A stretch of 44,937 nt of DNA from Candidatus Woesearchaeota archaeon (GTDB lineage Archaea > Nanobdellota > Nanobdellia > Woesearchaeales > GW2011-AR4): the NCBI GenBank assembly GCA_016185845.1, contig JACPMV010000022.1:1-44937 (forward strand). Direction: 5' to 3'. Made by a program: the position numbers and the translations under genes. This document shows positions 23,502 to 29,707 of the stretch, piece after piece (the first letter of the stretch is position 1; each line of letters begins with the position of its first letter). The notes below the pieces were generated by a model that had not been told where the DNA came from, did not search any database, and saw only the letters and a program-made list of their open reading frames with translations.

Positions 23502-24662
23502 TCACTTCAAGATCACAAGTTCGCCGCTCTTCACCTGCTTGACACTGAAGTCCATGACAACATCGCCTTTCCCGTCTATTGTCACTTTGCCGCCTGCTCC
23601 TTCATAGCCGTCAACAGCGTAGAGGTAGTCTCTTATCTTTTCACCATCGTAGCCGTTTTTAGCTATGGCATCTGACACAAGGTAGACTGCATCATAGGCT
23701 GCAGACATATAGAACGGAAATGGCGCTTCCTCATTTGCCTGCTGCTTGTATTTGCCAAGCACTGCAGCAGCTTTTGGCGCTTTGTCGTCAAATTTCTGCT
23801 CGACCCCTATAAGCCCTTCCAAGTCAGCGGCATTCTCAGCTATTGTGTTCCTGCCAAGAAGAACTTCCGGCGTCAGCAATTGCTTTGTAACTCCTGCTTC
23901 CTTGACCTGCTTTACCAGCAAAATGCCTTTTGGAACAGTCTGTGGCACGAGGTATATTACATCAGGATTTGATGCCTTGGCTTTCGTGACTTGTGTCCTG
24001 AAATCAGTGTCTTCAGGATTAAATGTTTCATCAGCCACTATTTCGCCGCCCAGTTTTGCAAAGTTTTCCTTGAAAACCTTTCTCAATCCCTGCGCGTAAT
24101 CAGTTGTTTCTGAGATTACAGCGGCTTTTTTTGCCTTCAGGTCATTGAATGCGTAATTAGAGGCTACAACTCCTGCAAATGCATCGCTTGGCGCCAGCCT
24201 AAAAACAAAGTCGCCTGCATTTGTTATGTCCGGGTTTGTGGCGCTTGGCGATATCAGGACTACCTTTGCTGCTTCTGTTATTGGCGCTGCCCCTAAAGTT
24301 TCTCCGGAGCAAACTCCTCCAATTATTACCTTGACTTTGTCCAGATTAACAAGCTTTTGAGCTGCTGCATTCCCGTCTTTTGGGTTGCATTTGCTGTCCT
24401 CATAAATAACTTCAAGCTTTCTGCCGTTTACTCCGCCTTGCGCATTAATCTCATCAATTGCTATTTTTGTTGTTCTTTGTATAGGCAAGCCGTAAGCTGC
24501 GCCGTCTCCGGTTAAAGGATACATTACTCCGATCTTGTAAGTGCCTTGTGCTTGAGCTGGCTTGACTTCCCCGCCAGTCGGCTGCTGAGCCTGCTGCTGT
24601 ACTTGACAGGCAGACATAATTAAAATAAACAATGTCAGAATTGCTAATATAGTCTTTTTCAT
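23502..24662 (-). CDS. livK: ABC transporter substrate-binding lipoprotein (LivJ/K-like)
   Basis: Lipobox MSAC near N-terminus, then YKIGVMYPLTGDGAAYGLPIQRTTKIAIDEINAQGGVNGRKLEVIYEDSKC. Confidence 0.9.
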   Translation of the reverse strand: MKKTILAILTLFILIMSACQVQQQAQQPTGGEVKPAQAQGTYKIGVMYPLTGDGAAYGLPIQRTTKIAIDEINAQGGVNGRKLEVIYEDSKCNPKDGNAAAQKLVNLDKVKVIIGGVCSGETLGAAPITEAAKVVLISPSATNPDITNAGDFVFRLAPSDAFAGVVASNYAFNDLKAKKAAVISETTDYAQGLRKVFKENFAKLGGEIVADETFNPEDTDFRTQVTKAKASNPDVIYLVPQTVPKGILLVKQVKEAGVTKQLLTPEVLLGRNTIAENAADLEGLIGVEQKFDDKAPKAAAVLGKYKQQANEEAPFPFYMSAAYDAVYLVSDAIAKNGYDGEKIRDYLYAVDGYEGAGGKVTIDGKGDVVMDFSVKQVKSGELVILK

Positions 24663-24709: not shown

Positions 24710-27418
24710 TTAAAGTTTTCGCCGAAAAAGTTGGGGTTTTGTGGGAAATATGTGATAAATCTTACCCCCCCATCTTCTCATCAACAAACTGTTAGAAACA
24801 ACAGAAACAGAGCTGAACGCCATCGCAGCTCCTGCAATTATCGGATTAAGCAGGAAGCCAAAAAAAGGGTACAAAATTCCTGCTGCTATCGGAATTCCAG
24901 CCGCATTGTAGAAGAAAGCCCAGAACAAGTTTTGCTTTATTTTTTTGATTGTGTAAGAGCTTAGCTTTATTGCCTTGACCACATCCCTTAAATCATTCTT
25001 AATCAAAACTATAGAGCCGGTTTCTATCGCAACATCAGTTCCTGCCCCTATTGCAATGCCGACATCTGCTGCAGCCAATGCAGGGGCATCGTTTATCCCG
25101 TCCCCGACCATTGCAACGACTTTTCCTTCGGACTTCAGTTTTTTTACTTCAAGTTCCTTGTCCTGCGGAAGGACATTTGCAATCACTTTTTCGATCCCGG
25201 CTTGCGCAGCTATTGATTTTGCGACTTTTTCATTGTCGCCGGTTATCATAACCGCTTCAATATTCATCTTTTTCAGTTCTGAAATCGCTTCTTTTGAGCT
25301 TTCTTTCAGGGTGTCAGCAACGCCTATGGCTCCGACAATAAGCCTGTCAAGCGCCACGGCCACAGTAGTATTTCCCTGCTCCTCAAGCTGCTGCATTTTG
25401 GCCCTGACGTCAGCGCTTATTTTCGCATTTTTTTCCTCAAGCAGCTTTTCATTGCCCACAATTATATTGTAGTTCCTGTATTTTGCAATTATTCCTTTTC
25501 CGCTGACAGCTTCAAAATGAGATGCGTCAGGAACATCAATCTTTTTTGATTTTGCATGGTTAAGTATTGCCTCGCCTATCGGATGCTCTGAGCCTTTTTC
25601 GGCAATCGCCGCAAACTTCAGAATATCCTCTTCATTGTATTTTCTGCTGAATACCTTGATATTTGTAACATCGGGCTTTCCTTTCGTCAGGGTTCCCGTC
25701 TTGTCAAAAATAATTGTCGTAAGCTTATGGGCTGTCTCAAGAGCCTCAGCATTCTTGATTAAAATCCCGTTTTCCGCGCCTTTTCCTGTGCCGACCATTA
25801 TTGCAGTCGGTGTTGCAAGCCCCAGGGCGCATGGGCAGGCAATTATCAGGACAGCGACAAAAACAGTAAACGAAAAGATGAAAGGCGAAGGAGTTAATGA
25901 AAGAAAATTTGGAGCAAGAAAATACCAGAACAAAAATGAAAGTATTGCTATTGCCATGACAATAGGCACGAATATGGATGAAACTTTGTCTGCCAGCCTT
26001 TGTATCGGCGCTTTTGAGCCCTGAGCCTCTTCAACTAGCTTTATTATCTGGGCAAGCATCGTGTCAGCTCCAATCTTGCTCGCTTTAATTTTCAGAAAGC
26101 CGTTCTTGTTTATGGTTGCCCCTATGACCTTGTCGCTAATCTTTTTTGAAACAGGAATGCTTTCTCCTGTAAGCATCGATTCATCGACATAAGAGCTTCC
26201 CTCTTCAACAATCCCGTCAGTCGCTATCTTCTCTCCGGGCTTTGCAATAAAAATATCGCCAATCTGCAATTCATCGATTTTAACTTCTCTTTCTTTTCCG
26301 TCTTTAATGACAATTGCTGTCTTTGGCTGCAGCCCAATAAGTTTTCTTATCGCTTCTGAAGCCTTTCCTTTTGTCAATGCCTCAAAATACTTGCCGAGCA
26401 AGATGAATGTTATGATTACAGCGGCAGTGTCATAATACATGCCTCCTGTAAATGCTTTTGGAAACAATGTTGCCAGCAAACTGTATATATAAGCCGCAGA
26501 TGTGCCTACAGCTATCAAAGTGTCCATGTTTGCTGTCCTGTTTCTCAAACCAATCCACGTTCCGGCGTAAAATCTGTACCCAAGATACAGCTGGACCGGA
26601 GTCGCAAGCGCAAGCAGGATGTAATTCTGGAATGGAACTGTTATTTTAAACCATTCCGGGAATGAAAGGATAAATATCGGAATGCTCAGGATAAATCCAA
26701 AAATAACTTCCCGCTTAAGCTTTGTTATCTCTTTTTGTCTTGCTATCTTCTCAGTGTCCTCTAAAGCGCCTGAAACCTCAATCAGCTCATATCCTGCATT
26801 CTTTATTGTTTTTTTTATCCTGTCAGCATTTGTAATCGCGGGGTCGTACTTTATGAAAGCGTTCTGGTTCACATACAGCTCTTTTGAAATTATTCCCTGA
26901 ATCGTGTTTAAGGCGCCTACGACAGTTCCGACGCAATGCGGATTGTCCATTCCGATGACTTTAAGCTTAATCTCTGCAATATTTCCGGAAGTCTTATGCC
27001 CCTCAGCAATCTTGTACCCGGTTTCCCTAATTATATTTTTTATTGAATCTTCATTTGTCTTATCCGTGTCAAATTCCACATTTGCCTTTTCCGAAGCGAA
27101 ATTAACATTTGCTTTTACAACACCATCAGCTTTAGAAATGGATTTCTCTATTGTCTGCGCGCATGTGGCGCAGTGCATGCCAGATATAGGCAAAATTATT
27201 TTTTGGATATTGTTTTGCTGGGTTATTTTTCCATTGATTTTTTTTATTGGTCCTATTTTTGGCGTTTTTTTAGTTAATGCATGGTTTTTGCTGCTTTTTT
27301 CCATAAACTTGTCATGGCAGCTTTTGCTGCAAAAATAGTATTTTTTACCATTCTTTACAGCACTGAATTTAGCTTTTTTCTCGTCAACTTCCATTCCGCA
27401 TACCGGGTCTTTTGGCAT
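24710..27418 (-). CDS. copA: Copper-transporting P1B-type ATPase with N-terminal YHS domain and two HMA-like domains
   Basis: DPVCGMEVDEKKAKF..YYFCSKSCHDKF (YHS), GMHCATCAQTIE (HMA), CPCALGLATP, DKTGTLTKGKP, MVGDGINDAPALA. Confidence 0.93.
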   Translation of the reverse strand: MPKDPVCGMEVDEKKAKFSAVKNGKKYYFCSKSCHDKFMEKSSKNHALTKKTPKIGPIKKINGKITQQNNIQKIILPISGMHCATCAQTIEKSISKADGVVKANVNFASEKANVEFDTDKTNEDSIKNIIRETGYKIAEGHKTSGNIAEIKLKVIGMDNPHCVGTVVGALNTIQGIISKELYVNQNAFIKYDPAITNADRIKKTIKNAGYELIEVSGALEDTEKIARQKEITKLKREVIFGFILSIPIFILSFPEWFKITVPFQNYILLALATPVQLYLGYRFYAGTWIGLRNRTANMDTLIAVGTSAAYIYSLLATLFPKAFTGGMYYDTAAVIITFILLGKYFEALTKGKASEAIRKLIGLQPKTAIVIKDGKEREVKIDELQIGDIFIAKPGEKIATDGIVEEGSSYVDESMLTGESIPVSKKISDKVIGATINKNGFLKIKASKIGADTMLAQIIKLVEEAQGSKAPIQRLADKVSSIFVPIVMAIAILSFLFWYFLAPNFLSLTPSPFIFSFTVFVAVLIIACPCALGLATPTAIMVGTGKGAENGILIKNAEALETAHKLTTIIFDKTGTLTKGKPDVTNIKVFSRKYNEEDILKFAAIAEKGSEHPIGEAILNHAKSKKIDVPDASHFEAVSGKGIIAKYRNYNIIVGNEKLLEEKNAKISADVRAKMQQLEEQGNTTVAVALDRLIVGAIGVADTLKESSKEAISELKKMNIEAVMITGDNEKVAKSIAAQAGIEKVIANVLPQDKELEVKKLKSEGKVVAMVGDGINDAPALAAADVGIAIGAGTDVAIETGSIVLIKNDLRDVVKAIKLSSYTIKKIKQNLFWAFFYNAAGIPIAAGILYPFFGFLLNPIIAGAAMAFSSVSVVSNSLLMRRWGGKIYHIFPTKPQLFRRKL

Positions 27419-27461: not shown

Positions 27462-27662
27462 TTATTGATTTTTATTATCAATACCCAACAGGTTATGCAG
27501 CCAGCACCATCCGAAAAAGCTCTCGACTAGTGAAATCCAGCCCACAGCAAATATTGCCCAGTTTACCCATACAATGCTGTATTGCGGCGCCCAAGGGCCG
27601 AGCCACCAAAATGCCAGCGCAAACCTTAAAATTCTGTCCACTCTGCCTAAGTTTTGTTTCAT
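27462..27662 (-). CDS. DUF2892-like membrane protein
   Basis: KQNLGRVDRILRFALAFWWLG..GWISLVESFFGWCWLHNLLGI. Confidence 0.75.
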   Translation of the reverse strand: MKQNLGRVDRILRFALAFWWLGPWAPQYSIVWVNWAIFAVGWISLVESFFGWCWLHNLLGIDNKNQ

Positions 27663-27833: not shown

Positions 27834-28358
27834 CTATCTTGATTTTTTAGATAAATCCCTCCACAATCTGAATATCCACAGATAAACAAGAATCACAAGG
27901 CCGATTGCCAGCAGAACCGCCAAAAAATTAAAAAAAGCGAAATAGCCATATCCATTCTGCCCCATCATTCCGTACCCAAAATTGTATGCCATCATGTTCA
28001 TCATTCCTCCATAGTTTGCTTTTCCGTAATTTCCCATCATGCCGTATCCAACAATGCCATAGTTAACGGCATCGTTCACGTCATTGCAGTACAGCCTTTT
28101 TGCCATAGAAATGTGCGTAAGCCTCAGGCTCTCGCTACCTTCGCCACCCATAATTTTGTCCATTGCTTCATGGGCTTCTCCTGGATGCATCTGCTCCATG
28201 AAGTAGTCCCCCAACGCTTCAAGCTGCGGCTCGCTTAATTTTGAGCATGGAGTCTTGGCGTCAATGATTTGTTTGGCTTCTGCAAAATCTTCGGTGTCGG
28301 CTGCAGCAATGCCAATAACTAAAATAAATATCGCCAGATACAAAATTTTCTTTTTCAT
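27834..28358 (-). CDS. Met/Gly/Tyr-rich secreted or membrane-anchored protein in copper cluster
   Basis: Signal peptide MKKKILYLAIFILVIGIAAADT, GYGMMGNYGKANYGGMMNMMAYNFGYGMMGQ, C-terminal TM; start trimmed to 28358. Confidence 0.65.
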   Translation of the reverse strand: MKKKILYLAIFILVIGIAAADTEDFAEAKQIIDAKTPCSKLSEPQLEALGDYFMEQMHPGEAHEAMDKIMGGEGSESLRLTHISMAKRLYCNDVNDAVNYGIVGYGMMGNYGKANYGGMMNMMAYNFGYGMMGQNGYGYFAFFNFLAVLLAIGLVILVYLWIFRLWRDLSKKSR

Positions 28359-28398
28359 TTTAACCGCCAGCAATTTTTATTTGGTAACTATATATCCA

Positions 28399-28466
28399 TT
28401 TTTGATATATTATACTGATAAGTATATAAACTTTTCTATTTATATCAAAATACGATATATCAAAAA
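28399..28466. promoter_or_regulatory. Inverted repeat TTTTTGATATAT / ATATATCAAAAA flanking divergent promoters
   Basis: 12-bp perfect arms at 28399-28410 and 28455-28466, plus an additional TATATCAAAA half-site at 28441, in the intergenic space between the copper cluster and the PadR gene. Confidence 0.5.
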
Positions 28467-28497
28467 AAGAAAGTTATTTATATAAGAATGCATTTCA

Positions 28498-28914
28498 ATG
28501 CCGAGCATGGCAGATGTTAAAATAAATAATATTGTTAAGTTCTATACTCTATGCCTTCTGGCTAATGAGCCAAAGCACGGGTACGATTTGATTCAAGAAT
28601 TAAAGGAAAAGCTAGAGAGAAAAATAAGCGCAAGCAATGTATACCCATTTTTGGATATTTTAAGAAAAAATAAGCTGATTAAATTTGACAAGATTGGGAA
28701 AAGGGATAAAAAAACATATTATCTGACGCAGGAGGGGGAAAAATTCACAAAGCAGATGTTCAGCAAGTTTGGGGATTTGATTAACCTGGCAATAGAGCCA
28801 AGAATAACAACATGCCCGTGCGGATGCAGGATTTATTCCGGCGGCCACACAAAAAAAGTCAGGGGAAAGGCTATGAAATTCTGTTGCCCTCATTGCGCAA
28901 AGATGTATAAATAA
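28498..28914 (+). CDS. PadR-family regulator with C-terminal Cys-rich metal-binding extension
   Basis: PadR wHTH (EPKHGYDLIQELKEKLERKISASNVYPFLDILRKNKLIKF) then CPCGCRIYSGGHTKKVRGKAMKFCCPHCAKMYK. Confidence 0.82.
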   Translation: MPSMADVKINNIVKFYTLCLLANEPKHGYDLIQELKEKLERKISASNVYPFLDILRKNKLIKFDKIGKRDKKTYYLTQEGEKFTKQMFSKFGDLINLAIEPRITTCPCGCRIYSGGHTKKVRGKAMKFCCPHCAKMYK

Positions 28915-28918
28915 AAAG

Positions 28919-29707
28919 CTATATCTTTCTTCTTAATCTGAACAACATATAGGTTCCAAATAAAAAAAGCGGAAAGCTCAGCAGCTGCCCCATAGTGAAA
29001 TAGTTTAGAATAAACCCAATCTGCTCATCCGGCTGCCTGAAAAACTCGGCAATTGTCCTCAGCAGGCCGTACATTGCCACAAAACTCCAGAACATGAAGC
29101 CTTTTGGAAGCTTTTTGCCTTTAATGAACCATAATGCGGCAAATATAAAAAAATTCTTCAGCGACTCGTAAATCTGCGAAGGGTGCCTGCATCCTTCTGG
29201 AACATCCTGTATAAATTGATTTTTAGAATAATCAATGCACCAGGAAAAATCAGTAATCCTTCCATACAATTCTCCGTTAATGAAATTCCCGATCCTGCCA
29301 AGGGCAAGCGCAAGCGCCACAGGCACTACTGTGATGTCTGCAATGTCATAAAATTCAATTTTCTTCTTCCTGCAAAACAGATATGCCGCGAATATTGCCC
29401 CCAAGAAGCCGCCATGGAAGCTTAGCCCTCCGTGCCATAGCTTAATGATCTCAGCAGGGCTGTTTAGATAAAATAGGGGATTATAAAAGATTATATAAGC
29501 CAGCCTGGCACCGAGAACAACACCTATCAGAAGGTATAATATAAAATCTGCTGCGTCGTCTTTGCTTAATTTTATGTTTTTTATTTTTGCAAGACTGGGA
29601 AGCATAAGATATGCTATAATGAACCCCAGGGCATAAAACAAGCCGTAATACCTTACTTCAAAAGGGCCAAATTCAAACAATGCCGGGTTTAAGTTATGAA
29701 AAAACAT
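28919..29707 (-). CDS. lgt: Prolipoprotein diacylglyceryl transferase
   Basis: FGPFEVRYYGLFYALGFI, WHGGLSFHGGFLGAI, LGRIGNFINGELYGRIT. Confidence 0.92.
   Translation of the reverse strand: MFFHNLNPALFEFGPFEVRYYGLFYALGFIIAYLMLPSLAKIKNIKLSKDDAADFILYLLIGVVLGARLAYIIFYNPLFYLNSPAEIIKLWHGGLSFHGGFLGAIFAAYLFCRKKKIEFYDIADITVVPVALALALGRIGNFINGELYGRITDFSWCIDYSKNQFIQDVPEGCRHPSQIYESLKNFFIFAALWFIKGKKLPKGFMFWSFVAMYGLLRTIAEFFRQPDEQIGFILNYFTMGQLLSFPLFLFGTYMLFRLRRKI

Follow-up and report, generated by a model that had tools for sequence, protein, structure and literature searches.

Known copper regulators of archaea include the Lrp-type proteins CopR and CopT of Pyrococcus, Thermococcus, Saccharolobus and the haloarchaea, which carry a C-terminal TRASH domain and whose gene is divergent from copA (PMC7830388). 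In Pyrococcus, a palindrome lies just upstream of the BRE between the divergent copR and copA genes; binding of CopR to DNA is weakened by copper and silver, less so when the TRASH domain is missing; and activation as well as repression is on record, the accounts differing (PMC7830388). The stretch of DNA analysed here (the window; 44,937 nucleotides, Candidatus Woesearchaeota archaeon, contig JACPMV010000022.1) encodes a regulator which resembles these proteins in its TRASH tail and in its divergence from copA, but, unlike the Lrp-type CopR, has PadR as its DNA-binding part. PadR proteins are best known as binders of drugs and phenolic acids. Rv3488 of Mycobacterium (5zi8, 7wh4) shares the PadR fold with the window protein and its structure reportedly has cadmium bound, with a link to metals proposed; to our knowledge this mycobacterial protein has no TRASH domain and no CopA operator arrangement.

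We propose, with a probability of about three in four, that the PadR winged helix and the C-terminal TRASH domain together form a copper-responsive, Cu(I)-sensing regulator of the cop operon, which represses in the absence of copper. Among 5.4 million open papers no text was found in which PadR occurs together with a TRASH or YHS domain, which agrees with the original prediction that the combination might be little described. The literature likewise yielded no evident account of how Woesearchaeota regulate copper. The features of the locus are listed in Table 1.

Table 1. Coordinates of the regulator, its promoter region and the divergent cop cluster in the window
Feature	Position	Strand	Remarks
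CopA, Cu+-type P1B ATPase	24710..27418	-	N-terminal YHS domain and two HMA domains; TIGR01511
YgaP-like transmembrane protein	27462..27662	-	PF11127; conserved in the cluster
Met-rich secreted or membrane-anchored protein	27834..28358	-	Opens the divergent cop operon; ATG at 28358
Operator O1 (putative), TATATCAAAAATGGATATA	28391..28409	-	Covers the predicted cop start site
TATA box of the cop operon, TTTATATA	28423..28430	-	BRE-like GAAAAG at 28431-28436
Operator O2 (putative), TATATCAAAATACGATATATC	28441..28461	+	Exact core 28441-28459; directly upstream of the padR BRE/TATA
TATA box of padR-trash, TTTATATA	28477-28484	+	About 30 nt 5' of 28507; A/G-rich BRE-like stretch before the box
PadR-TRASH regulator	28507..28914	+	135 aa; probable true start ATG 28507 (4th codon)
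PadR winged helix-turn-helix domain	28549..28749	+	PF03551; Foldseek matches to PadR structures
TRASH domain, CPCGC-x18-FCCPHCAKMYK	28813..28911	+	PF24273; invariant Cys; fold neighbours

The regulator and its cysteine-rich tail

The longest open reading frame of the regulator gene spans 28498-28914 on the plus strand and would specify 138 amino acids. Since M4 (28507) is the first residue conserved among the relatives and a TATA box lies at the appropriate distance from it, the protein probably starts there and the transcript is likely to be leaderless, beginning at 28507. A TATA-like element is found at about -31 to -28 in most relatives. The protein matched the Pfam PadR profile PF03551 with an E-value of 1.7e-13 (50.8 bits, cut-off 27), as did all 42 full-length members of its family, and Pfam gave no Lrp/AsnC-type match in it. 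The AlphaFold model of the whole chain has a mean pLDDT of 88.5 and a C-terminal helix at residues 75-99; its top PDB neighbours in a Foldseek search were mostly PadR proteins, which bears out the predicted winged-helix fold. The best sequence and fold matches were to the compact PadR structures (5zqh, 5h20, LmrR), in which a winged helix is likewise followed by a C-terminal helix. Unlike these, the window protein has a TRASH domain after the last helix and would probably bind a metal ion, not a drug or phenolic acid. Both sequence and fold place it among the PadR proteins, the TRASH sensor being an addition. The original prediction of a PadR winged helix followed by a Cys-rich tail was correct, and the motif quoted in it, CPCGCRIYSGGHTKKVRGKAMKFCCPHCAKMYK, is exact.

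The tail, a CxCxC…FCCxHC domain C-terminal to the winged helix, matched the Pfam TRASH profile PF24273 over residues 107-137 (E 4.8e-4, 20.7 bits), which is under the 27-bit cut-off. Among the 42 full-length members, 32 matched the same profile at E<0.01; when genomes were searched in six frames, six members of the family scored above the cut-off and the window protein stayed under it. TRASH motifs have the spacing C-x(19-22)-C-x(3)-C, and the window protein fits this with C105-x20-C126-x3-C130 (numbering from M4). Conservation of the cysteines had been set beforehand as a test of the prediction. In an alignment of the 42 sequences, some of them only about 37% identical to the window protein, C103, C105, C126, C127 and C130 are invariant, and C107, F125 and A131 are conserved in at least 90%; the spacing between the two cysteine clusters differs slightly among relatives.

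Structure prediction of the tail had also been proposed. Modelled alone, the last 37 residues gave a pLDDT of 82, and their best PDB neighbours were L24e ribosomal proteins and the MYM-type TRASH domain of ZMYM5 (TM 0.62-0.71), with E-values of about 0.8 to 2, weak because the 37-residue query is tiny. Both are known members of the TRASH/L24e-like fold. Judged by the Pfam matches in relatives and the predicted fold, the tail is a TRASH domain in preference to a generic YHS domain, which refines the TRASH/YHS-like metal site suggested originally. It shares with the N-terminal YHS domain (PF04945) of CopA from the same cluster a cysteine followed after about 20 residues by [FY]C-x3-C, and differs from it by the extra CxCxC and CC cysteines. 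Profile comparison of the two gave a weak similarity over the FCxxxC part (P 8e-4, probability 25%), in an alignment too short to carry much weight. Besides the YHS domain of CopA, no other TRASH protein was found in the window's genome, which is 81% complete. Small acidic proteins of about 80-110 amino acids with a C-terminal TRASH domain are widespread in Woesearchaeota (L141-L170, e.g. L142, L145 and L151); these are possible metallochaperones.

Relatives and the divergent cop cluster

Relatives were sought in 99 related genomes and in 371 genomes of the same phylum; the profile-level search covered this phylum, and the other archaeal phyla were covered by the close-relative scan alone. That scan, run on all genomes, returned eight Woesearchaeota records. 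The search for the PadR plus Cys-tail architecture, as advised with the original prediction, recovered 42 full-length members (PadR and the complete cysteine set, the window protein included) from Woesearchaeota and related families of the phylum, spread over numerous families and at least two orders of the class. PadR-TRASH was not found in plasmid and viral collections. Genome G003 contains a second copy (L054:12268-12678, plus strand), which has lost the FCCxxC half of the sensor and kept the upstream operator.

The claimed divergence from a copper cluster is borne out by the layout in Table 1, with CopA on the minus and the regulator on the plus strand. The window CopA scored 634.6 bits against TIGR01511 (cut-off 397). 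Three signatures were inspected, namely CPC, NxxxxxxYN and MxxSSxxVxxNSL: the first two are kept in every CopA copy with a complete ORF near padR-trash, and the last, as a strict pattern, in about two thirds of the complete copies. Association with metal genes in relatives was the other test set beforehand, and for 33 of the 42 full-length members a CopA gene is found no more than 5.3 kb away, mostly divergent. A Cu+-type ATPase over the family cut-off is present in 223 of the 371 genomes of the phylum, which have about a megabase of DNA each, so that we estimate chance linkage of padR-trash and copA at around 1% per genome. Independence of the loci cannot be assumed, since thirteen of the members belong to a single genus, but the copA link was seen in about nine families.

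The nine members with no CopA match comprise the five of family f41 (L095, L096, L099, L105 and L110) and four others. L056 and L113 lie at contig ends; L102 has the Met-rich protein and a DUF411-like protein; and at L058 AhpC/TSA-like and DsbD-like genes follow, copA being elsewhere, beside an ArsR-like gene. There is likewise no copA near the closely related PadR proteins without TRASH (L115, L116) or the truncated relative L062. The f41 genes adjoin alaS and encode proteins with intact cysteines, so that the cysteines alone are no proof of copper. Four of the five f41 loci have a different upstream motif, CAGTTAGGTTTTTAAA, which in four genomes occurs only at the family's own gene, plus one one-mismatch site elsewhere in G341; we therefore rejected it as a copA-linked operator elsewhere. 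The copA genes examined in f41 genomes are without the TATATC operator. This branch may have changed its target or its signal.

Among the other genes recurring in the cop clusters are those for the Met-rich secreted protein (in about half of the loci; the window protein matched no Pfam family over the cut-off), YgaP-like, DUF411, OsmC, SDR, DsbD-like and AhpC/TSA proteins, and a membrane protein carrying a winged helix of the DUF7343 type. The last, represented by L051:12027-12533 (minus strand) and its relatives in about 11 cop clusters, has two transmembrane helices with Cys residues between them and a C-terminal DUF7343 domain, and looks like a membrane-bound one-component sensor. CsoR was not found in the window's genome (81% complete). 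The window also encodes a bacterial-type prolipoprotein diacylglyceryl transferase, Lgt (28919-29707, minus strand; PF01790, 253.7 bits), and a lipobox-bearing amino-acid-binding protein (23502-24662, minus strand). An Lgt of this type in a Woesearchaeon, accompanied by a lipobox-bearing protein, is unusual for archaea; in the genus the lgt gene is retained close to the cop cluster.

Putative operator sites and promoter layout

The region between the two divergent genes revealed a palindrome, TATATC-N7/8-GATATA, which did not figure in the original prediction and is the probable operator of the PadR-TRASH regulator. Its two copies in the window lie 50 bp apart (47-53 bp in the genus). The minus-strand TATA box, which most members of the genus keep at about -82 relative to the padR start, places the predicted cop start site near 28400, inside O1. 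In relatives, the motif upstream of padR reads TATATC-N7-GATATATC (N8 in one branch) and ends about 36-48 nt before the start codon, just ahead of the BRE/TATA. Allowing two mismatches in 14 bases, it was found in 29 of 46 padR upstream regions compared with 1 of about 590 control genes; that lone control gene is the copA of locus L111, where copA is not divergent from padR and the operator still lies upstream of copA. The 12-base core, with both spacers and up to two mismatches, is present within 110 bp upstream of padR in 35 of the 42 full-length members. Across 690 kb of loci, 38 of the 44 near-matches (N7) fall within 350 bp of padR, and three at copA.

The exact core occurs in the window's genome (81% complete) only at 28391-28409 and 28441-28459, both in the intergenic region described here. 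The best-looking one-mismatch sites (L121, L126) lie inside or beside unrelated genes, so that the genome lends no support to a large or global regulon. In 20 congeneric genomes, 12 of the 14 exact sites are in the padR/cop intergenic region, and backward-read control patterns gave 6 sites in all; as such patterns are not rare in these AT-rich genomes, the position of the operator is more telling than the count. An exact copy outside the cop locus was observed in genome G014 (L139; C56:9655-9673), upstream of an operon for thioredoxin-like and CcdA-like proteins, which is possibly a second target.

As with CopR, the palindrome is directly upstream of the BRE/TATA between both genes, but its sequence, TATATC-N7/8-GATATA, differs from the TTNNCAWWWTGNNAA of the Lrp-type protein, and the regulon is apparently local, not global. 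Since the Lrp-type HTH is absent, PadR-TRASH is a functional counterpart of CopR and not a CopR.

Proposed mechanism and its meaning

The copA linkage and the cysteines support the original reading of a copper- or metal-sensing PadR protein. The domains, the conserved cysteines, the linkage to copA, the conserved operator sites and the promoter geometry are observations; we infer that the effector is Cu(I), that the protein binds the TATATC-N7-GATATA sites and that it represses rather than activates. A PadR-TRASH dimer would bind the palindrome at two sites between padR-trash and the cop operon, which comprises the genes for the Met-rich protein, the YgaP-like protein and CopA, with O1 covering the predicted cop start site and O2 abutting the BRE/TATA of padR-trash. 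Without copper, the metal-free protein would repress both promoters. Once Cu(I) sits on the TRASH cysteines, the dimer would change and either come off the DNA or cease blocking it, and the released cop promoter would allow the CopA pump to be made. Repression of both promoters with relief by Cu(I) fits the layout, since the cop start lies inside O1 and O2 abuts the padR BRE/TATA.

The sign of regulation is uncertain, because known CopR proteins activate as well as repress and the reports differ (PMC7830388). A serious rival, to which we give a minor share of the probability, is for this reason a regulator which activates the cop operon in response to Cu(I), or acts on it in both directions, and represses only its own gene, as reported for Pyrococcus CopR. 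Promoters activated by CopR are reported to have their site upstream of the BRE/TATA, which is where O2 stands with respect to both of these elements, and the loci outside the genus mostly have a single O2-like site; the second site over the predicted cop start, found in the window and most congeners, suits repression instead. PadR proteins, moreover, are mostly repressors.

A thiol, persulfide or redox sensor, whose cysteines would react with oxidants or sulfane sulfur and induce the cop cluster within a thiol-stress island, is improbable: the TRASH fold binds metal. Some room is left for a signal of the sulfur or redox kind, because the linked genes include those for OsmC, DsbD-like/CcdA, AhpC/TSA-thioredoxin, rhodanese-like and YgaP-like proteins, and in G014 the operator precedes the thioredoxin/CcdA operon. 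CopA is nevertheless the most constant partner while the thiol genes come and go, and several loci pair copA with padR with most thiol genes absent. Less probable still is a structural zinc in the TRASH tail that aids DNA binding or dimerisation of a regulator answering another ligand: L24e and the MYM finger, its closest neighbours of known structure, are both zinc folds and the copA-free family f41 keeps the cysteines, but CxCxC plus CCxxC is more than one zinc site needs, and the linkage to a Cu+ ATPase and the confinement of the operator to the cop locus also speak against it.

The preferred reading, a copper-relieved repressor, is directly testable with one protein and one short DNA, thanks to an operator that is both short and specific and that the families share. 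We lean towards the view that DPANN-type archaea evolved a copper sensor independently of CopR by fusing the same TRASH domain to a winged helix of the unrelated PadR type, whose operator is its own and whose promoter layout resembles that of CopR; TRASH would then be a portable metal-sensing module. If the copper-sensing reading is right, the copper homeostasis of the uncultured Woesearchaeota gains a regulator together with its sensor domain and its DNA operator, and a PadR switch is able to take up a TRASH sensor.
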